NCBI RefSeq assembly: GCF_028356935.1
Contig: NZ_CP102798.1
Location: 3,286,001-3,350,000, forward strand
Source of the DNA: Lysinibacillus sp. OF-1
GTDB lineage: Bacteria > Bacillota > Bacilli > Bacillales_A > Planococcaceae
DNA: 64,000 nt
Direction: 5' to 3'
Shown here piece after piece: positions 1 through 57,025 of this stretch. The first letter of the stretch is position 1; the number at the start of each line of letters is the position of its first letter. The notes below the pieces were generated by a model. The model was not told where the DNA came from. It searched no databases and was given only the letters and a program-made list of their open reading frames with translations. Position numbers and translations under genes: made by a program.

Positions 1-179
1 TTTTTAAAACATCCAGTTCTTCCGCTAAGAATCTGATAGCGACTTAATGCTCCCGTGAGTTGTCCCATTGAAATAGCTAAATTAAAATGAGTATTGAACA
101 TTTCAAGTAATTGTTTCTTTGAATGTGAAACATAATGTTCCCTTAAATATTCAAGCTCTTCTTTCGACCACCAATGCAC
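1..179 (-). CDS. Phage HNH-type endonuclease, N-terminal part (cut by window edge)
   Basis: This is the first ~59 codons of a gene that runs off the left edge. I start it at a GTG at 179, preceded by a good ribosome site (GGAGGGG) lying in the end of the upstream gene. The product has an aromatic start (VHWWSKEELEYL), then a helical segment and SGRTGCFK. That pattern resembles the N-terminal DNA-binding segment of phage HNH endonucleases, which often contain a SGRTGxF motif. The HNH nuclease part would lie outside the window. It is the last visible gene of the leftward early operon. The family call is from memory of motif shape. Confidence 0.5.
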   Translation of the reverse strand, partial: MHWWSKEELEYLREHYVSHSKKQLLEMFNTHFNLAISMGQLTGALSRYQILSGRTGCFK

Positions 180-182
180 GTT

Positions 183-413
183 TTACCCCTCCAATAGCTT
201 CGGTTTTTTGGCATCTGCGTTAAGATGATCATCATATACAGTTTGAGCCTTTAAAACTAATGAACCGTTAGCAATGATTTGGTTAGCTACATCTGTAACA
301 GCCTTCGCACGATTAATTTCTTCTACTAGCTGATCACCTTTTAAATCTTCATCATTTAAGCGTTCAAGCTGTGCAAATAAATGGTTGTTTAAATCTCCTA
401 ATGTGTTCCGCAA
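183..413 (-). CDS. Small phage early protein, function unknown
   Basis: A 76-residue, mostly helical, charged protein (MRNTLGDLNNHLFAQLERLN... ending KPKLLEG). It resembles short proteins often seen beside HNH endonuclease genes in Firmicute prophages, but I know of no assigned function. The start is a TTG at 413 with the purine-rich stretch AGGCGGTGGG upstream, inside the end of the preceding gene, which it overlaps by 16 bp. The stop lies 4 bp before the GTG of the HNH-type gene, so the two are probably translationally coupled. Confidence 0.6.
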   Translation of the reverse strand: MRNTLGDLNNHLFAQLERLNDEDLKGDQLVEEINRAKAVTDVANQIIANGSLVLKAQTVYDDHLNADAKKPKLLEG

Positions 414-3672: not shown

Positions 3673-4851
3673 ATGGCAAGTTATGAAATTTTAAACCCTA
3701 CTAAAAAAGGTGAACCACGAATAAAAATTACCGTGGAAGAAGGCTATGATGATAGAGGACGGCGCATTCGTTTTACAAAAACTGTACGTATGAAGAGTCT
3801 ATCTGATAGAGCGATTAAAAAGGCTATAAAGGAATTTGAACTTGAGGTGGCAACATCTAATAAGGTAACCAAAAACGAGGAACTTTCATTTGAAGCTTTT
3901 GTATTGGAAAAATGGATGAAGTTGCATGTGAAAAAGAATTTAAGATTAAGAACCTATCAAACTTACAATAGCACACTAACAAATTACATCATTCCATTTT
4001 TCAAAGGTATGAAATTAAGCAAGATTAAACCGATTGATATCGAGGAATTTTTTGCTTATGAGAAAGATTCAGGACGAAAAAACTTGAAAGGCAAGTATCT
4101 GATCCTGAAAAGTATATTTACGAAGGCTATAACATGGAAGTTTATCTCTAAAGAGAATGATCCCATGGAAGAAATAAAAGAACCAAATGTTGATAAGCGA
4201 CATCGAGAAAAGAGTTATTACAATGAAGAGGAACTTTTGATTTTATTCAAAGTACTTGAAGGAGTGCAACCGAAACAAAGAATAGCAATAAAAATGGCAG
4301 CAGTATTAGGACTAAGACGGTCTGAAATCTTAGGTATACGCCACCACTCTGTTAATTTTAATAATAATACTATTTTAATCGATGCACAATTACATTATGA
4401 CCATGAACATAAAAAGTTTTTACTTGGCCCTCCTAAAAATGGATTAGCAAGAACTGTTATAGTTCCAGATAAATTTATGGAGGAGATAAAAGAATATATG
4501 AAAGAACATAGGAAACAAAAAGAGTTATGCGGCGATGCATGGGAACCAGCAATTGACGAAAATGGAGAACCTCTTGATTTACTATATACCAATCCATACG
4601 GATACCCGAATCATATAAACAGTATCACAAATGAATGGGTAAAGTTATTGAAAAGGCACAATCTTGATTATATAAATTTCCACGGATTGCGGCACTCTTT
4701 CGCTTCTTTTATGGTGGCCAAAAACTCAAATATTAAAGTAATTCAAGAACAGTTAGGACACACCGATGTTAGACAAACAATTCAAACATACAGTCATTTA
4801 ACAAAAGATTTCAAGTTAAAAGAGCTTTCAAAGTTTGACGATATTTTATAA
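3673..4851 (+). CDS. int: Phage tyrosine integrase
   Basis: A 392-residue site-specific recombinase. The N-terminus (residues ~1-60) looks like an arm-type DNA-binding domain. Residues ~70-160 are the core-binding SAM-like domain. The catalytic domain shows the full set: Arg215 (LGLRRSE), Lys255 (PPKNG), His337 and Arg340 (HGLRHS), His363 (LGH) and Tyr373 (TYSH). Length is normal and the gene appears intact. It ends less than 100 bp from the broken radC gene, so it is the integrase at the phage-host junction and presumably uses radC as its attachment gene. GGGGAA lies 6 nt upstream of the ATG. Confidence 0.95.
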   Translation: MASYEILNPTKKGEPRIKITVEEGYDDRGRRIRFTKTVRMKSLSDRAIKKAIKEFELEVATSNKVTKNEELSFEAFVLEKWMKLHVKKNLRLRTYQTYNSTLTNYIIPFFKGMKLSKIKPIDIEEFFAYEKDSGRKNLKGKYLILKSIFTKAITWKFISKENDPMEEIKEPNVDKRHREKSYYNEEELLILFKVLEGVQPKQRIAIKMAAVLGLRRSEILGIRHHSVNFNNNTILIDAQLHYDHEHKKFLLGPPKNGLARTVIVPDKFMEEIKEYMKEHRKQKELCGDAWEPAIDENGEPLDLLYTNPYGYPNHINSITNEWVKLLKRHNLDYINFHGLRHSFASFMVAKNSNIKVIQEQLGHTDVRQTIQTYSHLTKDFKLKELSKFDDIL

Positions 4852-12909: not shown

Positions 12910-13190
12910 AATAAAAAAACTCCTCTCGTCTAAAAGGACGAAGGAGTTTTAATTCGCGGTACCACCTTTAATTCCAGCAGCGGTTAAGATCAATGCTAAA
13001 TGACACATTTTCTCAGCCTTCCCTACTGGCTCTTAATTCGGTAACGGTGTTTAACCGGCTTTAACTACTGTTAGTTCACTAAAGCTGCTCAAGGGCTACC
13101 TTCAATTAAGTACAAATAGAAACTTCTCAGCTACCGTTTCCTCTCTGAAAATGTAGACATAATTTACTCTTCCCTATCATAGCATCTGTA
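12910..13190 (-). ncRNA. T-box leader of valS
   Basis: The conserved T-box sequence AGGTGGTACCGCG lies at 12955-12967 (minus strand) and is followed by a terminator: AAAACTCCTTCGTC pairing with GACGAGAGGAGTTTT plus a T-run, 12913-12953. The T-box sequence and the 5' half of that stem form the alternative antiterminator that binds the CCA end of uncharged tRNA. The Stem I region includes GATAGGGAAGAGTAAA and AGCTGAGAAG-like elements. A GUA (Val) triplet at 13097-13099 lies where the specifier is expected, but I did not fold the RNA. Confidence 0.92.
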
Positions 13191-43843: not shown

Positions 43844-44923
43844 TCACAATGGTATCCGATATAGTTTATCGTCCTGTGACTGTGGGCTTCCTCGACCATC
43901 TGTATTATTGCTAATAAAATAAAGAAATGCGTCATCCACAAAGACATCACGAATTCTTCCAAATTCCGACAATCGTTCAATATATTTGTTTTCTTTCACA
44001 GCAAACGCTAACACTGCACTACCTCTTAAAGCTGCGACATATAATTGATCATCCATCATATCAATGCCAGATGGTGCCCACGTTTTAGAAGTACCTGATG
44101 TAAAGAGAGGTGTGATCATACCTTGCTGTTTTTTTGTTCCTTCAATATCGGGCCAGCCATAATTCTTCCCCTTCTCGATTATATTAATTTCATCGTTTGC
44201 GGCATTGCCATGCTCACTGGCATACATCGTACCATCTGTTGCCCAGGTCAAGCCCTGTGGATTTCGATGTCCATAGCTGTATACATAGGACTGTGGAAAA
44301 GGATTATCGTTCGGTATGGAGCCATCCAAATTGATGCGTAAAATTTTTCCCTCTAGAGCATCTAAATTTTGTGCTAAGGAAGGTTGCGTCGCATCACCTA
44401 CTGTTGCATACAGTTTACCATCAGGCCCTATTTTTAAACGACCACCATGATGATATGTACCACTCTTTATTCGATCTATGATAAGATCCGTTTCTAACCA
44501 CTTATTATCGTTCAAGGTTAATGTAACAATTCTATTAAACTGCTCGCTTCCTTCAACATACGTATAATAAGCAAAGGCAATCTGTTTGTCTGAAAAATTA
44601 GGTGCTAATACAAACCCCAATAAACCAGCTTCTGGCGCTGTTGAAAGCTCCTTATCGAGGATGACCTGTTGCCTGTCAACTGCTCCTCCTTCCTCAATTT
44701 TCACAATACTACCAGGCCTTTCTGCTACATAAAAAACAGTACCACTTTTTTGAATCGACCATGGTGTTTGCAATTGATTTGCTAGTATTTCTACTGTTGA
44801 ATTTATTGAAGGAGCCATGCGCGTTTCCTCTTTTTCTAAGCCTCCGTCACTCTTGTCCTTAGGTGGCACGCAAGCAACACATAAAACCATTACTAGCAGT
44901 AATAGTGGCATGATACATTTCAT
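43844..44923 (-). CDS. PQQ-type soluble aldose sugar dehydrogenase-like lipoprotein
   Basis: A 359-residue beta-propeller protein of the GSDH family (YliI/aldose sugar dehydrogenase). The signal peptide ends in a lipobox-like CVAC. The family motifs TPWSIQ, AERPGSIVKIE, GLLGFVLAPNF, YHHGGRLKIGPDGKLYATVGD and YSYGHRNPQGLTW are present; the histidines after YH and in GHRN match the PQQ and metal region of the family. The real substrate is unknown and no PQQ synthesis genes are near. Confidence 0.9.
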   Translation of the reverse strand: MKCIMPLLLLVMVLCVACVPPKDKSDGGLEKEETRMAPSINSTVEILANQLQTPWSIQKSGTVFYVAERPGSIVKIEEGGAVDRQQVILDKELSTAPEAGLLGFVLAPNFSDKQIAFAYYTYVEGSEQFNRIVTLTLNDNKWLETDLIIDRIKSGTYHHGGRLKIGPDGKLYATVGDATQPSLAQNLDALEGKILRINLDGSIPNDNPFPQSYVYSYGHRNPQGLTWATDGTMYASEHGNAANDEINIIEKGKNYGWPDIEGTKKQQGMITPLFTSGTSKTWAPSGIDMMDDQLYVAALRGSAVLAFAVKENKYIERLSEFGRIRDVFVDDAFLYFISNNTDGRGSPQSQDDKLYRIPL

Positions 44924-45038
44924 TGTTGTTCACCCTTTCATTTTTAATGCATTAAGAAAATAGAAAAAGACGCCCCTAGACGTCTCTTAGTGTTGAAAAA
45001 CAAAACGATCTATAGAAATTTTGTGAAAGGTAAAAATA

Positions 45039-45165
45039 GATTTCCGTTGCAGGCTACTTGCTTTCCTGTGGGCGAGCGCCGAGCCGCTTCCTCCGCTACC
45101 GCTCCGTGCAGGGGCTCGCCTGTCTCGCTATCCCACGGGAGTCAAGTAGCCTTCCACTCCAATCC
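45039..45165 (+). repeat. Hairpin repeat unit, copy A
   Basis: A 127-nt GC-rich unit beginning GATTTCCGTT and ending CACTCCAATC. GGCTACTTG (45052-45060) pairs perfectly with CAAGTAGCC (45143-45151), with GTGGG/CCCAC inside. The apex contains GAGCCGCTTC and CTCC/GCAGGG blocks shared with the other copies. Confidence 0.75.
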
Positions 45166-45360
45166 ATAAAGATGTTTCTTTTTAGCAAAGGTTTTCAAAT
45201 GAAGTGAAGGTGTTCCCTACTCTTTATGAAGAGGTGTTGTCACGCATCACTTCTCCACATTGAAAATAAGGAGCTTTCCTTTCTCTCATCAGGCAAATAA
45301 GGAGCGATTTTGATCGTGACGGCTCATATGAAAGAGAAAGAAAAGCCACTTTTGCCAAAT

Positions 45361-45493
45361 GGTTGATTGAAGTGGAGCCAGCGTCACTCCTAGGGGATTT
45401 AGCGTCACAGCTGAGACCCTGGAGCGAACGGAAGTGAGTGAAGCGGCTCAGCGGACGCCCCCTGGAAAGGACGCTGGCGGAACGGAAATCAAC
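45361..45493 (-). repeat. Hairpin repeat unit, copy B (inverted)
   Basis: Read on the minus strand it aligns with copy A along its length (GATTTCCGTT ... GAGCCGCTTC ... CAGGGTCTC ... CACTTCAATC). Its outer stem is CCAGCGTC (45378-45385) with GACGCTGG (45470-45477), different in sequence from copy A but still perfectly paired. Confidence 0.75.
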
Positions 45494-45556
45494 CCCTCGC
45501 TAAAAGTTCTTTTTCTGCTATTGACATGATCTTATTTCAACAACATGAGACGTCCC

Positions 45557-45721
45557 CTAGACGTCTCTTTTATTACCTTTTATACCTTCAAAAGTGATTA
45601 TTTCACCAAATGCTTTTGTTTTCGCTAACACATCAAGATACGCTTCTTTTCGATGGATGAGTCTTTCTTGTTGCAATTTCTGATGGGAATGTTGAAAATC
45701 ATCTATAGCTATTTTGTCCAT
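45557..45721 (-). CDS. 54-residue protein, function unknown
   Basis: A short charged, helical protein (MDKIAIDDFQHSHQKLQQER, then LIHRKEAYLDVLAKTKAF). The ATG at 45721 has AGAGGTGAG upstream. Its last codons and stop lie inside the right-hand direct repeat (45549-45569), so the original 3' end may have been altered by the repeat element. No family is recognised. Confidence 0.5.
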   Translation of the reverse strand: MDKIAIDDFQHSHQKLQQERLIHRKEAYLDVLAKTKAFGEIITFEGIKGNKRDV

Positions 45722-45873
45722 AAACTCACCTCTTCTAGTAGTGTACGTTAACACTATTATAATGTTGGAAAATTCTTACGACAATTCTATTTCTATTTTT
45801 GATTACAAGTTCCCAATAATAAAAAGGAAAAAAGGCATATAATTTTAGCCATTAGCTATTCAAATTTATCTAG

Positions 45874-46290
45874 CTAATGCATAAAAAAAGGTAGCACTTT
45901 TTCTTCAACAGCTTGTTCGCCTGCTTGAATCCATCTACTTTTATCGTGAATATACCCGTCTTTATCAAGCGGAGTTTGGAATTGACTAACACCAGTTGCA
46001 TCAAGTAAAGACCCCTCATCATAATCTAGACCTATATTCTCAACATGCTTAATGACAAATGGTTTTTGAAAACGAATTTGGGCATCCTCATTATCAAGTT
46101 CCCCTGATGTTACGATAAAGGGAACACGCAAATAAATAGTTTCCCCTGCCTCTTTCCATAATATCGAATCGAAGCTTCCTTTATAATACTCCCAATTCCC
46201 ACCAATCGTAAAACCTCGATTGGCAATTTTATCACGTAAATAGCCGAAACCAATCTCTTTTCCAACAATTTTTGAATCAAATTGTAGCAA
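45874..46290 (-). CDS. YugN-family protein
   Basis: A 138-residue protein: LRDKIANRGFTIGGNWEYYK, then LRVPFIVTSGELDNEDAQIRF and FVIKHVENIGLDYDEG. This follows the YugN-like pattern (an N-terminal helix, W-Y-KG-FD, then a beta sheet). Function unknown. The start is a TTG at 46290 with AAGGAGGAG upstream; the longer reading with MPPFRLDFY has none. Confidence 0.65.
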   Translation of the reverse strand: MLQFDSKIVGKEIGFGYLRDKIANRGFTIGGNWEYYKGSFDSILWKEAGETIYLRVPFIVTSGELDNEDAQIRFQKPFVIKHVENIGLDYDEGSLLDATGVSQFQTPLDKDGYIHDKSRWIQAGEQAVEEKVLPFFMH

Positions 46291-46374
46291 TTTGTATTCT
46301 CCTCCTTTCACTCGATAAAAGTCTAACCTAAAAGGTGGCATTACAAACTAGTTATGATGTAATTATGATTGCCA

Positions 46375-46417
46375 AAAAAGTCTCGAAACTTTTTTAAATC
46401 AAAGTTTCGAGACTTTT
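46375..46417 (-). terminator. Terminator of the monooxygenase operon
   Basis: A 17-bp perfect stem (AAAAGTCTCGAAACTTT/AAAGTTTCGAGACTTTT) with T on the minus strand, 10 bp after the esterase stop. Confidence 0.93.
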
Positions 46418-46426
46418 GTAAGTTAT

Positions 46427-47380
46427 TTATAAAGGCACTGAAATCTTTCGATGCAAAACATATTTAGCAGCTTCTACATACTCTGTGGCAGCCCTTTGAC
46501 TGACTGCGGCTGTTGGAGCAATACTTTCAAAGCCATGATAGCAACCTGGGTATAAGTGGAATTCGACATCTACTCCAGCCTGACATAGCTTTGTCACATA
46601 TTGTAAAGTCTCGTCACGGAATGGATCTAATTGTCCAACACATGTATACGTAAACGGTAATCCTGATAAATCATCTGCTCTAGCTGCTGCGGCATATGGT
46701 GACACATTGTCGCTGCCGTTCTCTCCACTCAAATACATTTCCCAGCCTTTTTGATTGAGCGAGTGGTTCCAGATCATATGTCCCGTAATTTCCAATGAAG
46801 ATGGTGTGTTATTCCGATCATCTATCATTGGATATAGAGGCATTTGGAAACTAAGCTTTGGATAATTACGATCTCGAGTAAGTAATGCGAGTGCAGCTGT
46901 GAGACCTCCTCCAGCACTTGCTCCAGCAATTCCTAAACGACTGGGATCAATCCCTAATTCGTCCGCATGATCTGCTACCCATTTTAACGCAGCATAACAA
47001 TCTTCAAGTGGTGCTGGATAAGGATGTTCAGGAGCAAGTCGATAGTCTACAGATACAACCACACACTTCGCTTCATTAACAAAGCGCTGACAAAGCAAAT
47101 CATCTCCTTCTGGAGCACCTAAGACATAGCCGCCGCCATGAATCCATAGTAGCCCTGGGGAAATTTCTTTCTGCTCTTTTGACTTATAAATACGAATGCG
47201 AAGAGAATCGTTGTCATCAGGCCCTTGAATCACTTTATTTTCAACTGTTATCTGTTCATCTATCGGAGCTGGCACAGCAACGGCTGCCATTCCTTCTCTT
47301 GTTGCCTGTACATTATCTAAATCTAATGGGGGGAAAATTGCTAACGTTTCTCTTAGTTCTGAATCAATACGATGTTCCAT
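46427..47380 (-). CDS. Alpha/beta hydrolase of the hormone-sensitive lipase type
   Basis: A 317-residue esterase: oxyanion-hole motif HGGG (81-84), nucleophile Ser155 in GASAGG, and C-terminal Asp (GQLDPFRDE) and His (YPGCYHGFE). This is the family IV (HSL) layout. The gene is third in an operon after a Baeyer-Villiger monooxygenase and a dehydrogenase, so it probably hydrolyses the ester or lactone made by the monooxygenase. The exact substrate is unknown. Confidence 0.92.
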   Translation of the reverse strand: MEHRIDSELRETLAIFPPLDLDNVQATREGMAAVAVPAPIDEQITVENKVIQGPDDNDSLRIRIYKSKEQKEISPGLLWIHGGGYVLGAPEGDDLLCQRFVNEAKCVVVSVDYRLAPEHPYPAPLEDCYAALKWVADHADELGIDPSRLGIAGASAGGGLTAALALLTRDRNYPKLSFQMPLYPMIDDRNNTPSSLEITGHMIWNHSLNQKGWEMYLSGENGSDNVSPYAAAARADDLSGLPFTYTCVGQLDPFRDETLQYVTKLCQAGVDVEFHLYPGCYHGFESIAPTAAVSQRAATEYVEAAKYVLHRKISVPL

Positions 47381-47412
47381 TAAAATTCTTCCTTTCTTAT
47401 TTAAAATATTTT

Positions 47413-48138
47413 TTACGATGTTAAACCGCCATCAATTGGTACGACAGCGCCATTCACATAAGAGGCTTCCTCCGAAATTAAGAAAGCGATTACATTTGCG
47501 ATTTCAGAAGCATCTGCTAATCTTCTTAGGGGGCCGTTTTCCTCTGGACTGGACGTTAAGCCCTTTGTCATATTAGTCATTACACCACCTGGACAAATAG
47601 CATTTACTCGTATACCGCTAGGACCATATTCAATGGCAGCAGTTCTAGTTAACCCAATAACACCGTGCTTACTAGCAGCATAGCCGCCTAAATAGGGTTG
47701 TCCTTGTATTCCTGCCGCTGAAGAAGTATTCACGATGACACCTGACTGTTGTTGCTCCATCTCTTTTAATACATATTTTAAGCCTAAAAAAGTTCCTTTT
47801 AGATTGACCGAAATGACGTTATCAAATGTCTCTTCCTCTAAATCTGCTAGTAAAGATGGCGGGCTTAACACACCTGCATTATTGATGAACGCATCAATTC
47901 TACCAAACGCTTCTTTTGCAGCCTCCACATATTTCTTCACGTCTTGGCTTTTAGAAACATCTGCGTGGACAAAGATAGCCTGTTGTTGATGTTCCTTCAC
48001 AGCGTGTAGTGTGTCTTGACCACTTTTCTCATCAAAATCTACTAATACTAATGCCTTGTCCTGTGTGGCTAGTAATTTTGCTGTTTCTCTCCCTATACCA
48101 TTTCCTGCACCTGTAATAATGACTACTTGTTGTCCCAT
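47413..48138 (-). CDS. Short-chain dehydrogenase/reductase
   Basis: A 241-residue classical SDR: TGAGNGIG at residues 9-16, NNAGV, catalytic Ser (NTSSAAG), Tyr and Lys (YAASK), and NAICPGGVMT. The acidic residue after the second beta strand (VLVDFDEKSG) suggests NAD(H). In this operon it likely oxidises an alcohol to the ketone that the neighbouring monooxygenase uses. 26 bp separate it from that gene. Confidence 0.92.
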   Translation of the reverse strand: MGQQVVIITGAGNGIGRETAKLLATQDKALVLVDFDEKSGQDTLHAVKEHQQQAIFVHADVSKSQDVKKYVEAAKEAFGRIDAFINNAGVLSPPSLLADLEEETFDNVISVNLKGTFLGLKYVLKEMEQQQSGVIVNTSSAAGIQGQPYLGGYAASKHGVIGLTRTAAIEYGPSGIRVNAICPGGVMTNMTKGLTSSPEENGPLRRLADASEIANVIAFLISEEASYVNGAVVPIDGGLTS

Positions 48139-48164
48139 ATTGATATATGCTCCTCTCTTGCAAA

Positions 48165-49790
48165 CTATGATATTGGTTTTAATCTCATTAATTTAAAGCC
48201 TTCATAATTATTTTGAGCCACCTCATGACAATGCTTTGTATAATAATCAAATCCGCCCAGATAAATTAAAAAACTGCGGGGTTTACCTTCAATATTAGCT
48301 CCCGTATACCAGGAATCACCTTTGACGTAAAGTGTTGTGTTAGCAATCTCTCGACAATGCTTGCTCCAAGCTTCCTCGGCATCTTTATTTGGTTCCACAA
48401 GGTCAATGTCATGCTCACGCAAGTAATCGATACATTGTGCAATCCATTCTACATGCTGCTCAATAGCGATTGGCATATTCACGAGGACAGATGGACTTTC
48501 TGGACCAGTAATCATAAATAAATTAGGAAAACCTGCTGTTGTTAGTCCGAGATATGTTTGAACAGAAGCACCATCCTCCCATTTTTCCTTTAATGTCTCA
48601 CCGTTCCTTCCCCTTATATCAATTTTAAATAATGGTCCTGTCATGCCATCATAGCCTGTTGCAAAAATGATACGATCTAAATCGTAATGTTCATCCGTCG
48701 TTTGAATACCTGTTTCTGTTATTTTTTTGATAGGTGATTCTTTTACATCCACCAGTACAACATTCTCCCTGTTGTAGGTTTCAAAATAATCACTATCTAA
48801 AACCTGTCTTTTCGTGCCATACATATACTTCGGACATAATTTTTCTGCTACCACAGGGTCTTTCACAATTTGTCGTATTTTAGAGCGAATAAATTCCGCT
48901 GCTTTTTCATTGGATTGTTCATTTGTTAACAGATCATCATAAGTGGCTGCGAAGGCAAAACCACCTTGTGCCCAAGCTTTCTCAAAAACCGCCATCCTTT
49001 TATCATCACTATGCTCCATTGCAGATTGCTGATTTTGTGCAAAAGGTGTACCTGATATAGAATTTCTCATCGACTGCTTTAAAGCTTCGAAATTTTGCTT
49101 GGTTTCTTTGATAAAGTTCTCATCATATGGATGATTACGAGCCGGAATCGTATATTGTGGTGTCCGTTGAAATACAGTAAGCTGCTCTGCTTCTTTCGCA
49201 ATTACAGGTATGGCTTGAATACCACTGGAGCCTGTCCCGATAATTCCTACTCGTTTCCCTGTAAAATCAACCTTTTCATGTGGCCAATGCCCCGTGTGAT
49301 ACCAATTTCCGCTAAACTGTTGCAGTCCATGAATGTTAGGAACATTGGCAGCAGACAGACAGCCTATTCCTGTAATAAAATACTTAGCTAAGATGTGCTG
49401 TCCGTCGTTTAGATAAACAATCCATTTATGACGTTCCTCATCAAAATGTGCTGCAGTGACCCTTGTATTAAATTGGATATCCGTTCGCAATTGAAAGCGA
49501 TCTGCCACGTAATTTAAATAACGTAATATTTCCGCTTGTTCTGGAAATCTAGATGTCCAAGTCCATTCTTCATACAACTCTTTTGAAAATGTATAGTTAT
49601 AATAGATGCTTTCTATATCACATCTAGCGCCCGGATAACGATTCCAATACCAAACACCGCCTACACCATCTCCAGCCTCGCATACAATGGTAGAAAAACC
49701 TTTACTCCTCAGCTGATGTAACATATATAAGCCTGCAAAGCCAGCGCCTAAAACAACTGCATCCACCTCTTTAATTGTTTGGCTACTCAT
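48165..49790 (-). CDS. Baeyer-Villiger monooxygenase (flavin-containing)
   Basis: A 541-residue flavoprotein with two Rossmann motifs (GAGFAG at 15-20; GIIGTGSSG at ~187) and the type I Baeyer-Villiger fingerprint FxGxxxHxxxWP (F159, G161, H165, W169, P170). It resembles cyclohexanone/phenylacetone-type monooxygenases, which insert oxygen beside a ketone carbonyl with FAD and NADPH. Length is standard. First gene of a three-gene operon, divergent from a LuxR-type regulator. Confidence 0.93.
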   Translation of the reverse strand: MSSQTIKEVDAVVLGAGFAGLYMLHQLRSKGFSTIVCEAGDGVGGVWYWNRYPGARCDIESIYYNYTFSKELYEEWTWTSRFPEQAEILRYLNYVADRFQLRTDIQFNTRVTAAHFDEERHKWIVYLNDGQHILAKYFITGIGCLSAANVPNIHGLQQFSGNWYHTGHWPHEKVDFTGKRVGIIGTGSSGIQAIPVIAKEAEQLTVFQRTPQYTIPARNHPYDENFIKETKQNFEALKQSMRNSISGTPFAQNQQSAMEHSDDKRMAVFEKAWAQGGFAFAATYDDLLTNEQSNEKAAEFIRSKIRQIVKDPVVAEKLCPKYMYGTKRQVLDSDYFETYNRENVVLVDVKESPIKKITETGIQTTDEHYDLDRIIFATGYDGMTGPLFKIDIRGRNGETLKEKWEDGASVQTYLGLTTAGFPNLFMITGPESPSVLVNMPIAIEQHVEWIAQCIDYLREHDIDLVEPNKDAEEAWSKHCREIANTTLYVKGDSWYTGANIEGKPRSFLIYLGGFDYYTKHCHEVAQNNYEGFKLMRLKPIS

Positions 49791-49847
49791 CCACTACACC
49801 CCTCACTCCAATAAATTATTAAATACAAATACAAGAAAATACTGGAT

Positions 49848-49902
49848 TTCCTTAGCTTAAATACTACAACTTACAGAAAATATTGAAAATTCCTTATTTT
49901 AA
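49848..49902. promoter_or_regulatory. Paired direct repeats in the divergent control region
   Basis: TTCCTTAGCTTAA (49848-49860) and TTCCTTATTTTAA (49890-49902) agree at 11 of 13 positions and start 42 bp apart, four turns of DNA. They lie between the monooxygenase operon and its divergent regulator and are a plausible activator site. Confidence 0.45.
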
Positions 49903-49934
49903 GCGTAGTATATACTTAAAAAAGGGGATAGGTC

Positions 49935-50630
49935 ATGTCCAATCTTTATACCATTCAAAAACGTTTCGACACGGTACAAAGTTATGCCAATCATGAAGAG
50001 CTGTTGATACATATTTTGCAGGTATATTTAGATTCTTTTCCTATCAAAGATGCCTACTTATTAAGGTATTCTCCAATAGGCTTTGTAGCTGAAGGAATCA
50101 TTTTTTTGAATGAATCTGGAGGTAGTCATATCGGTGAAATTCGAGAGGAGATTCGTAGCTTCCCTATTATTTATGCTGCTATTGAGGATAAGAAGGCTAA
50201 ATTTTGTACAGGAATGGATTATTTAAAAAATATAAGTATTAAATATTCTATTCCCTCACAAAATAATTCATTTTTAATCATTCCCATCTTCATTGGCCAA
50301 TATGTTTTCGGCTATATTTGTAGTACACAATTGGAAGAGGAAATCGCTATAAATGAAAAGCTATTGGATGACATGACAGCTTTTGGAAATGTTATTGGTC
50401 AGCTTATCATGCAAGCTAGAAATAGCAAAAAGGAAGGCCTTCTTAGCAAACGTGAGCTGGAGGTGATGAGACAGGTAGCACAAGGGGGAAGTACGAAGGA
50501 AATTGCAGATTTTATGGATTTAAGTGAATTAACTATTACCCAATATGTCAAATCTGCTATCAAAAAATTACATGCCAGAAATCGTTCTCATGCCATTAGC
50601 ATTCTTTATCAAGAGGGAATTATTCTATAA
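49935..50630 (+). CDS. LuxR-type transcriptional regulator with GAF-like sensor domain
   Basis: A 231-residue regulator. Residues ~15-160 look like a GAF-type ligand domain (LLIHILQVYLDSFPIKDAYL ... FLIIPIFIGQYVFGYI). Residues ~168-230 are a LuxR HTH (LSKRELEVMRQVAQGGSTKE ... ITQYVKSAIKKLHARNR). Its place opposite the Baeyer-Villiger operon makes it the likely activator. The inducer is unknown. AAAAGGGGATAGG lies upstream of the ATG. Confidence 0.88.
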   Translation: MSNLYTIQKRFDTVQSYANHEELLIHILQVYLDSFPIKDAYLLRYSPIGFVAEGIIFLNESGGSHIGEIREEIRSFPIIYAAIEDKKAKFCTGMDYLKNISIKYSIPSQNNSFLIIPIFIGQYVFGYICSTQLEEEIAINEKLLDDMTAFGNVIGQLIMQARNSKKEGLLSKRELEVMRQVAQGGSTKEIADFMDLSELTITQYVKSAIKKLHARNRSHAISILYQEGIIL

Positions 50631-50636
50631 AAATTC

Positions 50637-50660
50637 AGGGGGAGCATGCAACTCCCCTCG
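50637..50660. terminator. Weak hairpin after the LuxR gene
   Basis: GGGGAG pairs with CTCCCC around CATGCAA; no T-run, so its terminator role is doubtful. Confidence 0.35.
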
Positions 50661-50742
50661 ATTACTACACAAGTATGCTCTGCATCCATTGCATAATGCA
50701 ACAATTTTCTTAGACTCAAATGTCTTCGCTTTAACAACTTTA

Positions 50743-51204
50743 TTACCCCCAGTAGGCCCTCATTAAATCTATTGACCATGCTGGCTGTTGAACATCCTTT
50801 TTAGGTAAAAACTCTTTCATCACAGGCTTTATATCTAGTATAGGTGTGCCATCAATGGCATCTAGCCCTTGGACGATTAATGCTCTTGGTTTGACCTCTA
50901 ATAACTCAACGATTGTACTTCCTAATTTATTGGGTCTATTCTTACCCCTTTGCGCGAAAATGCCGACCTCGGGATAATTTTGATTATTTCTAGGATGTCT
51001 CGCCTCATATTGGATATGATCGTCTGTAACTTTATCAAAATAAAAAATAATTTCTAGATGAGAAAAATCTCCTATTCCTTTTAAGGATGCCTCCTGGATA
51101 TGATCAGCAAGTTCAATAGTTGAAATAATCTCTCCCCAATAATCATCTTTGATCATTTGCCGATTGTTATAAACTGTAGCGATTGATTGAACGATATATT
51201 GCAT
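50743..51204 (-). CDS. TrmO-like tRNA methyltransferase (TsaA/YaeB domain)
   Basis: A 153-residue protein with the TsaA beta-barrel core: IQEASLKGIGDFSHLEIIFY, the HPRNNQNYPEVGIFAQRGKN segment containing the RGxxRPN motif, and VKPRALIVQGLDAIDGTPIL. TrmO N6-methylates t6A37 in tRNA using SAM. E. coli TrmO is longer, but single-domain forms are common. The ATG at 51204 has GGGAGA upstream. Confidence 0.8.
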   Translation of the reverse strand: MQYIVQSIATVYNNRQMIKDDYWGEIISTIELADHIQEASLKGIGDFSHLEIIFYFDKVTDDHIQYEARHPRNNQNYPEVGIFAQRGKNRPNKLGSTIVELLEVKPRALIVQGLDAIDGTPILDIKPVMKEFLPKKDVQQPAWSIDLMRAYWG

Positions 51205-51273
51205 GTCTTTTATCTCCCATCGTTTCGAATGTTTAATAATACGGACTTTAATTCCAGTATATACAAAATAGAC

Positions 51274-51302
51274 AAAAAAAAGATGATTAACCTCGTTAAT
51301 CA
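51274..51302 (-). terminator. gerA operon terminator overlapping the gerAC stop
   Basis: TGATTAAC pairs with GTTAATCA around GAG, followed on the minus strand by CTTTTTTTT. The stem includes the gerAC stop codon. Confidence 0.8.
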
Positions 51303-52486
51303 CCTGACGTCCCATAATCTTTAATGGTTACATTCACTTCACATGTGATTGGAACCTCACTAAATGTTTGATCCCAATCTTTTTTTATTTTTTGCCATAC
51401 CTTTGGATAATCTATTCTTATTTTATTGCCAAATCCAGCAACATCCGTTTGAAATTCATGTTGCGTTTTTTCCAAAACCTTCTTCACTAATCGTTCAATC
51501 TCTTTTTCAAATACTTTCTCCGCTTTTTTCAAAAATCGATTGTCAAATGCCTTATCTGATAGGACCCAATGTTCAGAGATTCTACCCTCTGTTTGAATTT
51601 TTATGGTAAAAGAGATTTGATCGTCCTTTATGAGAGGAATAATTTTACTTTTAGCTGAAATAATTTCATAGATAATGGGTGCCCCTGACTCCTCATCAAA
51701 GCCTTTGACTAAACCACCTTTCCCTTCGCCTGTTATCCATGCAATTCCTTCCAAGTCACTTTCATTTAAAAAGCCACGCAACTTTTTCGTTTTGCCTTCA
51801 ATGACAGCAGCTCCTGCAAACCTTACTTCCCCATCTTCCGCTAACACATTTTGCAATAAAAAGCTTGAGTCTGAATAGAGCTTTCCTTCTAACTTGGCAA
51901 CGGTCATCGGTGGTAAAATCTTAGTCGTCCTTTCATGCCCCTCCATCATTTCCACTAATTGAAAAGCTGGAATTTTCGTTGGTTCATTCGTTTCAAGTGC
52001 CTGACTTGCACGATTTTGAGCAATAAGGAGCAGGCCACTCGGTCGTATTTCTAATTCTCTTAGAAAAAAATCTAGTGTTTGTTGAAGATTGACGGTACTG
52101 GCTAAATCTTCCCCAATAATAATCACTTTGGAATGTTCAGCAAAGGAGCGTTTATCAACTTTTAGAAGCATATTTCGTAATGTTGGCAACACCGCATCGC
52201 CCGTTTCAGTGACATTTTTATATGCTTTTTCAGGTAAGGTACCCTCTTTCGTTCCAGAAACTGTTGTCTCTGATGTAATGAATTGATTGGTAATTGTTAG
52301 CAGATCCCTATTTGCATATCTAGCATCTTGTTGCTCCTCAGAAGATACATCACCTGTTTCTAAATCCAATGATGTGCCTACAATAATACCTAAATCCTCA
52401 ATCTCTTTACTACTCCAGCAACCAGTAAGAAGAAAGGATACAGTCATTAATAGAAGGTATCGGATATATTGATGTTTTCGCTTCAT
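51296..52486 (-). CDS. gerAC: Spore germination lipoprotein, Ger(x)C family
   Basis: A 396-residue lipoprotein with lipobox LLTGC followed by WSSKEIEDLGIIVGTSLD, the standard beginning of GerAC/GerBC proteins. The three beta-rich domains of the family fit the length. It lies on the outer face of the inner spore membrane as part of a germinant receptor. Its ATG overlaps the permease gene stop (ATGA). Symbol by class; germinant unknown. Confidence 0.93.
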   Translation of the reverse strand: MKRKHQYIRYLLLMTVSFLLTGCWSSKEIEDLGIIVGTSLDLETGDVSSEEQQDARYANRDLLTITNQFITSETTVSGTKEGTLPEKAYKNVTETGDAVLPTLRNMLLKVDKRSFAEHSKVIIIGEDLASTVNLQQTLDFFLRELEIRPSGLLLIAQNRASQALETNEPTKIPAFQLVEMMEGHERTTKILPPMTVAKLEGKLYSDSSFLLQNVLAEDGEVRFAGAAVIEGKTKKLRGFLNESDLEGIAWITGEGKGGLVKGFDEESGAPIIYEIISAKSKIIPLIKDDQISFTIKIQTEGRISEHWVLSDKAFDNRFLKKAEKVFEKEIERLVKKVLEKTQHEFQTDVAGFGNKIRIDYPKVWQKIKKDWDQTFSEVPITCEVNVTIKDYGTSGD

Positions 52487-53580
52487 GCTTTATTTCCTCT
52501 CCATTTCGATATAAGGAGTAAAATTATAGGTACGGCACCAAATAAAATTAGTGCAGCATGGCCAATCTTATCGCCAAATGTAAAAAGATCATTAATATTT
52601 TTTGGCGTCATCGCAATGATATAAATAATCGGTAATAATCCGTATAAGAAAGGATTCATACTTTTCTTAAAAAGTTGAGCTAATCCTAAAGCAGCTGCAT
52701 AATAGGTAATCGAGAAGGTAGCAAATATTTGCATAATCCAGATGACCAGTAAAAACGACTCAAAGCGTTCAAAAATTAATCCAGGAATTTCAAAACTTCG
52801 CATCAATTCAATCGTGGGCCATGTCCTTGTCATAACCCCTTCAATGGATAAAGCTCCAATAACCATAACAACTGTAATAACATAAAAAAGTAAAGGAATC
52901 GTTATGCCCACTAGTACAACCTTTACAGCTTTTGATTTATCTGATGGATACATAAATGCTACTATAAGCAGCATAATTTCAGGACCTAAAAATGCCAGTG
53001 TCGCTGTTTTGATCCCCTTTAACATGGGTACAACACCCAAACCTAATACTGGTCTAAGATTATCGATTTCAAAGATTCCTAAGCTTAAAAAGGCCACGAG
53101 CAAAAAAATCACAAAGGTTATAGGGAAAATGATTTCAAACAAACGAGCAATTGTATTGATGCCACCACTAATCAAATAAATCCCTACCCACAAAAAGGGC
53201 AAAATGATAGCCCATGTAGGTGTTCCTTCTAATAAGAAGAGAGATGTTACTTCAGCCATTATGCGAACCTCAAAAGCAGAAATGGTAAAAAAGTAGACAA
53301 TTACACATATACTTATGAATGAGCCCAACCATTTCCCTATAATATCTTGATTGTATTGATAAAATGTTTTGTCAGGATATTGTTGGCTTAGCTTGACAAT
53401 AATTACGCCCGCAATCATGGCAACAACTCCACCTAAAAAAACACTAATCCATACATCCGGCGTTTTTACTTTTTCTACAGATGCACGAGGTAAGGTAAGA
53501 ATTCCAGTGGCAAGAATATAGTTAATAATAATAACAACTGCTTGTGATGTCGTTATTTTATCTTTTAAAGTGCTGTTCAT
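52483..53580 (-). CDS. gerAB: Spore germination permease, GerAB family
   Basis: A 365-residue protein with ten predicted membrane helices (SQAVVIIINYILATGILTLP at the start), of the APC-type spore permease family thought to bind the germinant. AAGGAG lies 8 nt upstream of the ATG. It is the middle gene of the receptor operon. Confidence 0.93.
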   Translation of the reverse strand: MNSTLKDKITTSQAVVIIINYILATGILTLPRASVEKVKTPDVWISVFLGGVVAMIAGVIIVKLSQQYPDKTFYQYNQDIIGKWLGSFISICVIVYFFTISAFEVRIMAEVTSLFLLEGTPTWAIILPFLWVGIYLISGGINTIARLFEIIFPITFVIFLLVAFLSLGIFEIDNLRPVLGLGVVPMLKGIKTATLAFLGPEIMLLIVAFMYPSDKSKAVKVVLVGITIPLLFYVITVVMVIGALSIEGVMTRTWPTIELMRSFEIPGLIFERFESFLLVIWIMQIFATFSITYYAAALGLAQLFKKSMNPFLYGLLPIIYIIAMTPKNINDLFTFGDKIGHAALILFGAVPIILLLISKWRGNKA

Positions 53581-53601
53581 GGCTGTTTTTCTCCTTTCCT
53601 C

Positions 53602-55269
53602 TTATTTCCCTTTGCGGATAGAATCTTTTGGCTTTAATAATCTCGGACGATGTTTCATCACCCTGAACGGCATACGAACCATAAAGTCTTTCCAGTCACC
53701 TGCTCTATACGGAACAGTAGGACTAAGATATGGTACGCCGAAGCTCTTTAGTTTCACTAAATGACTGCAAAGGAATAAGAAAAATAGGATGATGCCATAT
53801 AGTCCAAATAAAGCAGCAGAAAACATTGAGACAAATCGCAGCATTCGTAGCGTGATGCCAGCATTATATTGAGGAATAGCAAAGGAAGAAATCGCCGTTA
53901 GTGCAACAACAATAACCATAATTGGACTAACAATTCCTGCCTGTACTGCTGCTTCTCCAATGACAAGCCCCCCAACAATTCCCATTGTCGGACCAATCGG
54001 CTTAGGCAAGCGAAGGCCCGCTTCTCGTAGTATTTCAATGGCAACCTCCATAATGAGAGCTTCGATTAATGCTGGGAAGGGTACCCCTTGCCTTGTCCCC
54101 ATCATGGACAACGCTAGTTTAGTGGGAATTAACCCCTGATGAAACGACACAAAAGCAATATACAAGGACGGTCCAAATAAAGTGATACCTGCAGCAAAAT
54201 AACGAAGCAAACGGATAAGAGAGCTAGGCAACCAACGTTCATAATAATCTTCTGGTGATTGCAATAACATATTAAATGTGACAGGTACAATTAAAGCAAA
54301 GGGAGTGCCGTCTAATAGAATTGCAACTCGTCCTTCCAGTAAAGCTGCAACAACACGATCAGGACGCTCGGTACTCTGTACTTGCGTAAACGGACTAAGG
54401 TAATTGTCCTCAATCAATTGCTCAATATAACCTGATTCAGCTACATCATCCAAATTGATTGTTTCAATCCGTTTCCTCACCTCTTTGACGAGATCAGGTT
54501 CCACAATTTCATCTATATAGGCTAAGACTAACTGTTTTTTTATTCGCTCCCCCACTTCCATTTCAATAATAGATAAATGTTGGTTTTCACCATGTTGCCT
54601 CAATAAAGAAGTATTGACACTTAATTTTTCCGTGAAGCCCACCCTTGGTCCACGTACCAATGCTTCAGAAACAGGCTCCTCAAGATTTCGAGTCTTTCCA
54701 TGTGCGGTACCAATGATAAATACACTCGGTATACCGTCAACAATTAATACAGTAGAGCCAGTTAATACTTTTCCCACGGAATTCATGACATTCGATTCAT
54801 CTATAAGATCACTCACTGGTAGGATTTCATTTGCAATCAATTGTTGTAATTCATAACCTCTTATCAACGTGGAACTTTCTGAAAGTCCATTCATTAATGA
54901 TTTTAAAATATGCTTGTCAATCAGCTCTTTATCGCATAACCCTTTAAGAAAAACGATGGCTGCACGATTACCAGTATTTCCAATATGAAATTCTCTGAAA
55001 TGGATATCCCAATTATGACCAAGTTCTTTCCTCATTAGTAAGAGATCTTCACTGTAATTACCTGTAAATTGCTCTAACGTTTTTTGAATAGGTTTATGCA
55101 CCGTCTCACTTTGATCACTATATTCTTTTATATCAATCTTGCCGTTGCCCTTTTTGACAATAAAAAAACCATTAAACAATTTGAAAATCAAATATGGAAT
55201 GAAAAATGCTAAAAAGCCCTGAAAAAAAACTTGCCAATGCGGCACATAGGAAATCACCTTTTCCCACAT
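53602..55269 (-). CDS. gerAA: Spore germination protein, GerAA family
   Basis: A 555-residue protein of the GerA subunit class: a soluble N-terminal part ([20 protein letters not shown] ... [12 protein letters not shown]), then the membrane domain with [24 protein letters not shown] and [32 protein letters not shown]. It begins with an extra hydrophobic segment (residues ~12-35, [20 protein letters not shown]) ahead of the soluble domain, which is not usual for the family. ATG at 55269 with AGAGGGTG upstream. Confidence 0.93.
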
Positions 55270-55401
55270 ATTGATCACCCTCTTTAGTACAATCGTACAG
55301 AGTATCCCTACATGTTTTTAGCATTATCTAAGCAACGGCATTTTAAACTTCTAATCCCCAACATTCTTCTCAAAACAAGACATCTGATCTTTGACAGCCA
55401 T

Positions 55402-55436
55402 AAAAAAACCAGCCTCAAATAATTTGAGAACTGGTA
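55402..55436 (-). terminator. Orphan minus-strand terminator upstream of gerAA
   Basis: ACCAGTTCTCAAAT pairs with ATTTGAGGCTGGT, followed by seven T on the minus strand. No gene with normal length lies upstream on that strand; only the 22-codon remnant at 55513-55581 does. Confidence 0.75.
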
Positions 55437-55512
55437 TTAATAAATTGTTGAGGTATTGGATAAGCTGACTTGTCTTTCCTAAGTATTCTTCAATATCGAT
55501 TCTACTTACTTT

Positions 55513-55581
55513 CTAAATCCAATTTTCTTTAACGACATTGATTTCATGCGTTATGAGCAGGACTCCCCATTCCCCTCTCAT
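55513..55581 (-). pseudogene. Possible remnant of an ABC transporter ATPase gene
   Basis: A 22-codon ORF, MRGEWGVLLITHEINVVKEN, resembles the switch region of methionine-type ABC ATPases (LLITHEMDVVK). AAAGGTGG lies upstream. It is far too short to be functional and is followed by an orphan terminator, so it may be what is left of a deleted operon. The similarity is over about 12 residues only. Confidence 0.3.
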
Positions 55582-55674
55582 GCCTTATTTCCACCTTTAA
55601 TGTTTAGGATAAATGAAATCTATTAAATAGGATATGGTATACTAGCTACTATGAAAAATTAGAAGGTGAAATTT

Positions 55675-56679
55675 ATGCTAGAAGTCAGTGAAAGTAAATT
55701 AGCACAATATAGTCTACATTTTGTGAGCGAAACACTTATTTTAGGAGAAGAAGCCTTGTCTCAACCGGAAGTCATGCTAGAAGCAGCCTTTACACAGCTT
55801 GCATTTAGTAAAATAGATATGGAGCAGCAATACGAATTTTTCCATGAAACCAATATTGAGCTTAATGAAGTTTTTACGTATTCTAAGGCTATTTTTGAAC
55901 AGAACAGTAACTTTCTAGAACAGTCACAAAATATGGCTAGGCACTTACATAGTGTCTCACAACATCCAAACATCAAAAGCGGTGAACTGTTTATTGGTTT
56001 GTTCGAAAATTGTTTACTATTGAATGAGGCTAAAAAAGTTATTGCCATTGTCAAAATTGATGAAAAAGAAATATTTTTAGATGTAAAAAATGACCACAAT
56101 CAAATGATTATCAACGGCGTTGATGGTATTAACGTCAAGAAAATAAATAATATGGCTATCATTGTTGATATGGGACCAGATCAAGCACCTGCTGTGTTTA
56201 TGAAAACGAAACGTAAAGAAGATATTGTTTATTGGCAAGAACGATTTTTAAAAATTAAAGCAGCAGATGAACATTATCATAAAACGGATTTAGCATTAGC
56301 TGAATGTAAAAAATACATCTTAAAGGAAGAAAATTATACAAACACGGAGAAGCTGGGACTTCTGAATAAAACACTAGATTATTTTAGAAATGAAGAGGAG
56401 TTTCAAGTAAACCATTATATCGACACCGTATTTGAGCAAGCAGATGCTAGCCAAAAAGATATCATCATCAACTCAGTCAAACCCTATGAAACAGTCATTT
56501 CGGACAGTGCTTTAGAAAAGGCTGAGAAGAAGTATAAACGTAAAATCAAACTGGATGCCAACATTGAAATACAAGTAAATATTCAACATATCGATCAAAT
56601 AGATGAGCTGATTGAAGTTGGCTATGATGAGGCAACGAATCGTAAATTCTATAAAATCTATTTCCAGGATGAACAGTAG
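55675..56679 (+). CDS. Nucleoid-associated protein (YejK/NdpA-like)
   Basis: A 334-residue protein with the features of the 37-kDa nucleoid-associated family: an N-terminal region with LFIGLFENCLLLNEAKKVIA, I-KIDEKEIFLDV, NMAIIVDMGPDQAPAVF and a C-terminal part with KRKIKLDANIEIQVN and YDEATNRKFYKIYFQ. By the family it binds DNA; its role in Firmicutes is unclear. The ATG at 55675 has GAAGGTGAA upstream. Single gene with no partner nearby. Confidence 0.75.
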   Translation: MLEVSESKLAQYSLHFVSETLILGEEALSQPEVMLEAAFTQLAFSKIDMEQQYEFFHETNIELNEVFTYSKAIFEQNSNFLEQSQNMARHLHSVSQHPNIKSGELFIGLFENCLLLNEAKKVIAIVKIDEKEIFLDVKNDHNQMIINGVDGINVKKINNMAIIVDMGPDQAPAVFMKTKRKEDIVYWQERFLKIKAADEHYHKTDLALAECKKYILKEENYTNTEKLGLLNKTLDYFRNEEEFQVNHYIDTVFEQADASQKDIIINSVKPYETVISDSALEKAEKKYKRKIKLDANIEIQVNIQHIDQIDELIEVGYDEATNRKFYKIYFQDEQ

Positions 56680-56734
56680 AAAGGGCATTCACTTTTTATG
56701 AAAGCTGATTTAACATAAACAAATAAAAAATAAT

Positions 56735-56861
56735 GATTCCCATTTCAGACTACCCGCTGTCCTGTGGATTGGCGTTAAGCTACTTCCTTCGCTATCTCTA
56801 CGTGCAGGGTCTCAAAAAGGCTCGCTTACCCACTGGAATCGGTAGACTTTCACTATAGTCA
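56735..56861 (+). repeat. Hairpin repeat unit, copy C (degenerate)
   Basis: Same 127-nt length and order of blocks as copy A (GATTCCCATTTCAG, CTGTGG, GCTACTTCCTTCGCTA, GTGCAGGGTCTC, CTTTCACT). Outer stem AGACTACC (56747-56754) with GGTAGACT (56841-56848) pairs at 7 of 8 positions, in sequence unlike copies A and B. Confidence 0.65.
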
Positions 56862-56892
56862 GTAGTAGTGGAACATTTTAAACATTAGAATT

Positions 56893-57025
56893 CAATTGAT
56901 GTTCATCAGAAGGTGCTCCTAAAGCTAACAATTAGGAGCACAAAGCTAAAACCATCATACTCTGCACTAATGCCTTCGTTACTCGTGCAATTCCAAGGAC
57001 GTACTAGGTCGTAACGGAAAACGCT
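56893..57025 (-). repeat. Possible fourth hairpin repeat unit (degenerate) with a perfect hairpin
   Basis: The right end (AAGGACGTACTAGGTCGTAACGG and on to CTC) resembles the end of copy B, so this is likely the decayed inverted partner of copy C. At its left is a perfect 10-bp hairpin GTGCTCCTAA/TTAGGAGCAC (56913-56941). Otherwise the 640-bp gap 56680-57321 shows no gene; a GAG-rich hairpin near 57189-57222 may be a terminator. Confidence 0.4.

Follow-up and report, generated by a model that had tools for sequence, protein, structure and literature searches.

IS1272 and TnSha1, members of the IS1182 family of insertion sequences (ISs), have hairpins as their targets, which in two reports are deleted or replaced but not duplicated, and the hairpin targets of the family show no sequence specificity and are often terminators (PMC5678879, PMC4923244). 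Fig 13 of the first report includes a hypothetical pathway, b, in which joining at the 5' foot would duplicate the whole stem-loop (PMC5678879). We analyzed a hairpin repeat in a stretch of 64,000 nucleotides from Lysinibacillus sp. OF-1 (contig NZ_CP102798.1, positions 3,286,001 to 3,350,000 of the forward strand), hereafter the window. With a probability that we put at roughly 85%, this repeat is a non-coding miniature inverted-repeat transposable element (MITE) of an IS1182-family IS, with a whole terminator-like hairpin as its target duplication. We assign it to this type because its ends resemble those of an intact IS1182-family IS that itself duplicates hairpins. Sequence comparison shows the element ends, the duplicated hairpins and the empty sites, as well as an intact IS of sister species that resembles the element in its ends and in its choice of target.

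Like IS1272, the present element goes with a DDE transposase family and with hairpin targets. The two differ in outcome, in that IS1272, in those papers, removes or replaces the stem-loop and leaves no target duplication, whereas here the whole stem-loop is duplicated and not deleted; the present element is moreover non-coding and bears covarying hairpin arms. Long duplications in the family may already be known from reviews, the IS1182 entry in those based on ISfinder giving target duplications of 0 to 60 bp. REP and REPIN repeats, with their RAYT (Y1) transposases, are dispersed hairpins with conserved flanking bases, as the present units are, but the present hairpin is much longer (about 130 nt) and its association is with a DDE transposase. 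The MITEs Bcr1, RUP, NEMIS and ERIC resemble the present element in being short, non-coding, intergenic, bounded by inverted repeats and present in many copies (PMC3733652); the element is set apart by a hairpin duplication of 20 to 41 bp, two covarying subterminal hairpins and IS1182-type ends. Bhal-1 of B. halodurans is likewise an intergenic hairpin repeat in Bacillaceae; at 74 bp, it may be distinct from the present unit (PMC2267715). Bacillaceae-1 RNA (RF01690) is a structured motif of Bacillaceae as well (PMC2864571); it matches neither the window nor any of the seven loci scanned. We found neither a hairpin-duplicating MITE nor the covarying module described in the portions of the open-licence literature that the search covered.

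The window copy runs from 44989 to 45547 (559 bp, + strand), with boundaries that are set by the flush repeats at its sides and may be off by 1 to 3 bases. Its left terminal inverted repeat, AGTGTTGAAAAACAAAACG (44989 to 45010, +), and its right one, CTTATTTCAACAACATG in + strand letters (45527 to 45547, -), are common to the copies in the OF-1 genome. Between them lie a left arm hairpin unit, U1 (45039 to 45165, +), with the outer stem GGCTACTTG/CAAGTAGCC; a middle segment (45170 to 45355, +) conserved among copies at about 69 to 90% identity; and an inverted right arm unit, U2 (45364 to 45490, -), with the outer stem GCCAGCGTC/GACGCTGGC. No open reading frame (ORF) of at least 80 amino acids is listed inside 44989 to 45547, and the window element thus holds no transposase gene. 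On either side stands a copy of one terminator-like hairpin, AGACGTCCCCTAGACGTCT: the left copy, AGACGCCCCTAGACGTCTCTT (44968 to 44988), which coincides with a terminator-like site, and the right copy, AGACGTCCCCTAGACGTCTCTT (45548 to 45569), form a direct repeat with 21 identities in 22 columns, one base off each element end.

The OF-1 genome, searched as one contig of 4.71 Mb with units 1 and 2 as BLAST queries, holds at least 40 places with unit 1 and at least 41 rows with unit 2, many of the places being paired in opposite orientation, 200 to 300 bases apart (copy numbers from all unit searches, in this genome, the genus and the class, are lower bounds). With 49 loci taken from these places and the window as the fiftieth, the order of left arm, middle and inverted right arm is present at 43 of 50; the remaining seven lack one or more pieces. 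Because the two units stand together in this order at 43 of the 50 loci, we regard them as arms of one element, not as independent copies. Two accounts were ruled out at this point: free-standing structured RNA copies as the sole explanation, since the arms belong to one element, and REP-like single hairpins for this genome, since the arms are paired and accompanied by ends. A search with the end pattern gave 16 further places, 13 of which are shortened or decayed copies, and no match to the whole element was found among the plasmid and phage sequences searched. At L050, a remnant of 60-odd bases (4129 to 4192, -) keeps both MITE ends with the interior almost gone. Insertions of 1.4 kb interrupt the right arm of the MITE copies at L021 (2262 to 3687), with an IS3-family transposase, and at L033 (2290 to 3716), with near-identical ORFs; belonging to the IS3 family, these inserts were ruled out as the autonomous partner.

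A preliminary description of this DNA had taken it to hold three separate units of one repeat, with stems paired fully or nearly so, and a degenerate fourth. The three hairpins are real and lie where they were placed, with scores of 151.5, 135.0 and 91.2 bits from a covariance model in whose training set all three are included, but the second is on the minus strand and the first two are arms of a single element. Both of these pair in full along GGCTACTTG/CAAGTAGCC and GCCAGCGTC/GACGCTGGC, whereas the stem AGACTACC/GGTAGACT has a mismatch and its unit, U3 (56735 to 56861, +), is a decayed relic of the left-arm class that folds no better than shuffles (z -0.72) and, as a genome query, finds only three other weak places at E<=1. 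The fourth unit is weak: its best match, a doubtful decayed right arm of U3 at 56901 to 57022 (-), is equalled by 8 of 200 shuffles, and the covariance model matches neither this stretch nor any further place in the window at E<=1.

Evidence for target duplication comes from the flanks. Copies start near (C)ATAGTGTTGAAAAACAAAAC and finish near CTTTTTTCAACAACATG, beyond which the flanks vary by locus, yet the two sides of each locus repeat each other, as with AGGCTGAATACTAGTTCCACTAGCATTCAGCC at both sides of L032 and AAACCGCTAGGCATTCTCATGCCTAGCGGTTT at both sides of L022. Counting a repeat as flush when it has at least 18 identities, and only the 44 copies with both ends (six of the 50 were dropped for lacking them), we find a flush direct repeat in 32 of 44, compared with 64 of 1892 mismatched left-right flank pairs. 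The repeats have a median length of 32 bp (range, 20 to 41 bp), and 30 of the 32 are hairpins, folding better than shuffles (p<=0.05). Within a locus the two hairpin copies are near-identical; between loci they differ. Within 200 nt of 26 of the 32 copies lies an apparent gene 3' end, defined by open frames of 90 or more codons and not by annotation, compared with 253 of 960 positions drawn at random from these loci; the window copy is one of the six that lack such an end. Targets at gene ends fit the over-representation of IS1182 between convergent genes in an earlier report (PMC9208149).

Empty sites support the same conclusion. The flanks of four loci, each joined with a single hairpin, were searched in six genomes of the genus, and for three of the four loci there are contiguous sites that match the query, single hairpin included. 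The L010 site is contiguous in the conspecific genome G043 (289 bases, 100%), that of L025 in G042, G013 and G041 (88 to 89%), and that of L022 in G042 (87%). The L027 site is contiguous in none of the six and is filled in G043, where L022 and L025 are also split as if filled; L025 is likewise split in G018. There an element (G018:C1:921741-922284) occupies the same hairpin as L025 of the OF-1 genome, three other congeners being empty, and this shared occupancy may reflect either common ancestry or a repeated hit.

A likely source of transposase is found among close relatives. NF033551, the model of the IS1182-family transposase, matches 37 of 41 genomes (OF-1 and 40 relatives) and exceeds its cut-off in 19, and six of the 18 IS1182 loci scanned (L066 to L070 and L073) are flanked by repeated hairpins, with slight differences between the hairpin copies at L070 and L073. 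Pairwise comparison of copies from ten IS groups yielded the candidate partner, L132, with the ends TTCATTCTGTTGAAAAACAAAATCGTCTATAGACAAAATGTGAA... and ...CATTGACATAATCTTATTTCAACACTATGAA, identical to those of the window element at 31 of 42 positions on the left and 26 of 31 on the right; the ends of L146 and L148 are also similar to those of the window element. The L132-type element is intact, 1556 bp long, with an open frame of 473 codons, and its transposase scores 288.9 bits with NF033551 (cut-off, 270) and carries the Pfam domains DUF772 and DDE_Tnp_1_6. Two sister species hold it, in five copies (G005) and three (G001), and G018 has a 63% relative with one internal stop. Duplicated hairpins flank L132, L147 and L148, and at L146 and L147 the IS has its hairpin in common with a MITE-like end. 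At L146 (about 1340 to 2972), one hairpin occurs in series with a MITE-like end and the IS, as if hit twice. Hairpin duplications are also present at three of ten loci from named relatives, of 18 bp in Neobacillus sp. OS1-33 (L168) and Priestia flexa (L169) and of 36 bp in Bacillus sp. AFS006103 (L170). A 451-codon IS1182 of the CAGACTG type in the OF-1 genome (L070) was ruled out as partner, having different ends and a transposase of 32% identity; a glmS ribozyme (RF00234) lies near this copy, at 178 to 349 (-) of the locus.

These observations suggest a pathway of insertion. A DDE transposase supplied in trans would act on the MITE ends, CATAGTGTTGAAA.../...TTTCAACAACATG, and the MITE would insert at the foot of a terminator-like hairpin, with duplication of the whole hairpin to give the order hairpin, element, hairpin. 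Joining would occur at both feet of the hairpin, which may be extruded or otherwise recognized. The duplicated hairpins are probably working terminators, in which case each insertion would keep a terminator at both sides and its neighbors would hardly be disturbed.

Several observations weigh against a hairpin-duplicating MITE of the IS1182 type and temper our estimate. A close copy of the partner transposase is missing from the OF-1 genome (32% identity at best), which leaves current mobility there in doubt. The intact partner IS, L132, is without the arm hairpin, as are most of the 55 IS-bearing sources. A flush repeat is missing from 12 of the 44 copies, and a recognizable end from six of the 50; terminator character was scanned for in the window hairpins only. 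Copies L040 and L041, with most of one arm gone, still have near-perfect duplications, so the arms may be dispensable or may have been lost later. A flanking hairpin repeat rises above the 99th percentile of controls at nine of 30 unit loci in the genus, but no such repeat was found among the 27 class loci L206 to L232; in these controls one random pair scored 46, which we think is due to MITE sequence common to different loci. Finally, solo units in G206 appear by eye to be without IS1182 ends.

The arm hairpin keeps its shape while the letters of its stems change. Of 113 units from the OF-1 genome, 39 were set aside as partial, and 18 of the 74 full ones, picked for diversity, were used to build the covariance model. 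The folds of units 1 and 2 are far more stable than those of their shuffles (z -3.6 for DNA and -5.9 for RNA). Within the OF-1 genome, compensatory changes mainly separate the arm classes, and stem changes within a class are mostly one-sided, pair 23-115 in the decayed L047 being an exception. The 18 units (alignment A1) have a covariation score of 0.383 against 0.163 when shuffled, with cells also above shuffles; their two-sided pairs number 9 against 8.5 in shuffles, a figure reached by 247 of 500 and hence not above them. Across species the signal is strong. Among 64 matches from the genus (A2), 19 of 26 pairs are two-sided and 91.8% of cells pair, and the score of 0.440 compares with 0.151 for shuffled controls and no more than 0.058 for slid ones; for A4, with 44 matches (41 distinct) taken from the class together with G222 and G206, the corresponding values are 19 of 26, 90.3%, 0.413, 0.120 and at most 0.090. 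Both alignments were fitted to the model, which favors covariation, although the slid controls stay low, and because of this fitting and the relatedness of the sequences the figures are indications, not probabilities. Compensatory change goes beyond shuffled and slid controls, strongly only across species, and selection on structure is its simplest reading. Variation is greatest in the outer stem: 127 units contain 68 distinct outer arm pairs. Watson-Crick pairing extends over all nine places in 18 of these, and over every scorable place, with six or more scorable, in 30, as in GACTGAGTG/CACTCAGTC, AGGTGCTTG/CAAGCACCT and GTCTGCTCG/CGAGCAGAC, with the rest gapped or mismatched. An alternative pairing of GGAGT with ACTCC, considered as a switch, was rejected, as by eye it is not kept in all units.

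The unit is widespread, with matches in all 32 genus genomes searched (OF-1 and its conspecific included) and, under stricter filters, in at least 34 of 200 class genomes, including three from the same genus, and at least 15 of 94 genera. Eight plasmid records, from Priestia, Bacillus, Radiobacillus, Planococcus and Niallia, contain units; the phages searched gave no match. No Rfam family was found for the unit in the window element, in 44900 to 45700 at a lax threshold, or in seven loci scanned, where the Rfam matches fall outside the units or far under gathering scores. Elsewhere in the window, a T-box leader is recognized at 12931 to 13189 (-; RF00230, 145.5 bits).

The preliminary description was right in its broader outline, namely, a structure conserved through compensatory change, in a mobile repeat, with hairpins and a transposase involved. 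It had placed the compensatory change among copies of one genome, where we see it mainly between arm classes; the covariance model and covariation test that it called for gave their clear result, 19 of 26 two-sided pairs, across species, and not within the 18 OF-1 units, with nine such pairs. Given the breadth of distribution (32 of 32 genus and at least 34 of 200 class genomes), the units are not remnants of one recent duplication, and the plasmid matches in the five genera agree with its mention of similar repeats in other Bacillaceae. Its suggestion of REP-like elements moved by a transposase acting on hairpins, with TnpA/Y1 genes to be looked for, is not supported: the likely partner belongs to the DDE transposases of the IS1182 family, although no search for Y1 genes was made, and the hairpin apparently acted on is that of the target, not the repeat's own arm.

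The arm hairpin of about 130 nt is a conserved module of several IS1182-type groups, placed either close to both ends or in the interval from one end to the transposase gene. It lies past the left end and ahead of the transposase start, on the same strand, in 13 of the 55 IS-bearing sources, which amount to 12 loci since L079 and L144 are one: L066, L068, L069, L070 (the one from OF-1), L073, L080, L086, L087, L136, L137, L144 and L145. The transposases of L086 and L087 are partial, the pairs L136/L137 and L144/L145 each represent one element in two copies, and the set falls under at least two unrelated end types. The unit is also found, upstream of the transposase gene, inside an internally deleted IS1182 of Bacillus badius and, by eye, in short elements with GAGGCTGAGAC-type ends in Priestia megaterium plasmids; empty sites were sought with the unit flanks of two of these plasmids, and none was found. 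At six of ten loci in G222, again by eye, it comes after an IS1182-type end and borders on sequence similar to the 3' end of the transposase. The module is nevertheless not obligatory, as an IS sharing the MITE ends lacks it. At L138 and L139 (G007), an IS1182 element of another group has apparently inserted inside units at GACGCTGATC, with a short duplication.

What the arm unit does admits several explanations, and one alternative concerns the flanking hairpins themselves. Terminators can occur in tandem, and the element might have come to lie between two that already existed; we consider this very improbable, since the three empty sites (L010, L025 and L022) match one hairpin and since the two copies are near-identical within a locus but not between loci. 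For the arm, a structured RNA is a possible but doubtful alternative, in which the unit would be a leader or read-in hairpin controlling transposase expression and left over in MITEs. Its placement at the 12 IS1182 loci, immediately ahead of the transposase gene and oriented with it, favors this, as does the strong covariation across species. Pairing intermediates cut both ways. They were counted in 123 units, excluding identical units and those with fewer than 18 scorable pairs or less than 80% paired, with two weak pairs dropped in a second count; G-U and A-C cells number 47 and 41 overall. The inner stems have G-U in excess (39 versus 19, p=0.012), whereas the outer and most variable stem has A-C in excess (22 versus 8, p=0.016), the reverse of what RNA pairing would predict for this orientation. 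In the MITE, furthermore, a unit lies near each end and the two point in opposite directions, and no Rfam family matches the unit (window element and seven loci scanned). In five of eight leaders a TATAAT-like box with at most one mismatch lies between unit and start codon, so that the unit might be outside the mRNA; the box is exact in three leaders by script and in L218 by eye. The two leaders scanned for promoters have a single weak site apiece, which precedes the unit in L070 and follows it in L274.

It is also conceivable, if on balance unlikely, that the unit is an independent dispersed hairpin repeat of the REP or REPIN kind, possibly moved by another enzyme, that IS1182 elements and MITEs have captured. 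The G206 solo units would fit such an origin, running from GTTGATT to AATCAAC at eight of ten loci with flanks that by eye are unrelated except in one pair, and so would the L250 site, which is without the unit in the relative G241, and the presence of the unit in at least 15 of 94 genera. A tandem array also counts in its favor, four units lying in direct succession at L203 (1501 to 2441) with a spacing of about 271 bases. Yet, by eye, units adjoin IS1182-type ends in the P. megaterium and B. badius plasmids and at the six G222 loci, the class loci show no target duplication, and no Y1 partner was identified, though Y1 genes were not searched for. A mutational origin, in which template switching copies changes from arm to arm of a palindrome and so keeps the stems complementary, would explain why the outer stem is nearly all Watson-Crick with its letters free (the 30 distinct arm pairs above) and why G-U intermediates are not in excess there. 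We regard it as rather improbable, given that some positions stay unpaired throughout the family (pair 25, unpaired in most units, has not been erased) and that the unpaired boxes CTTTCC and CCAATCA are widely shared.

With these alternatives weighed, the evidence on whether the arm unit works as DNA is mixed but leans that way. A role as a cis-acting structure for the transposase or its regulation is our tentative prediction, to which we give somewhat less than an even chance. A more specific proposal, which we hold to be possible though rather less likely, is that the covarying module of 130 nt acts as DNA, is read by shape by the enzyme that reads the target hairpin, in assembling or regulating transposition, and allows the MITE to amplify because it is present at both ends. 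If so, shape recognition in this family would cover an internal hairpin as well as the target hairpin.

The OF-1 genome provides about thirty natural cases, three with empty sites, of an outcome that PMC5678879 drew only as hypothetical. They suggest a simple route to a harmless mobile element, one that leaves a terminator-like hairpin at both of its sides. The arms in turn form a large, alignable set of covarying hairpins tied to a transposase family, with which recognition of shape in DNA and in RNA can be directly tested against each other.

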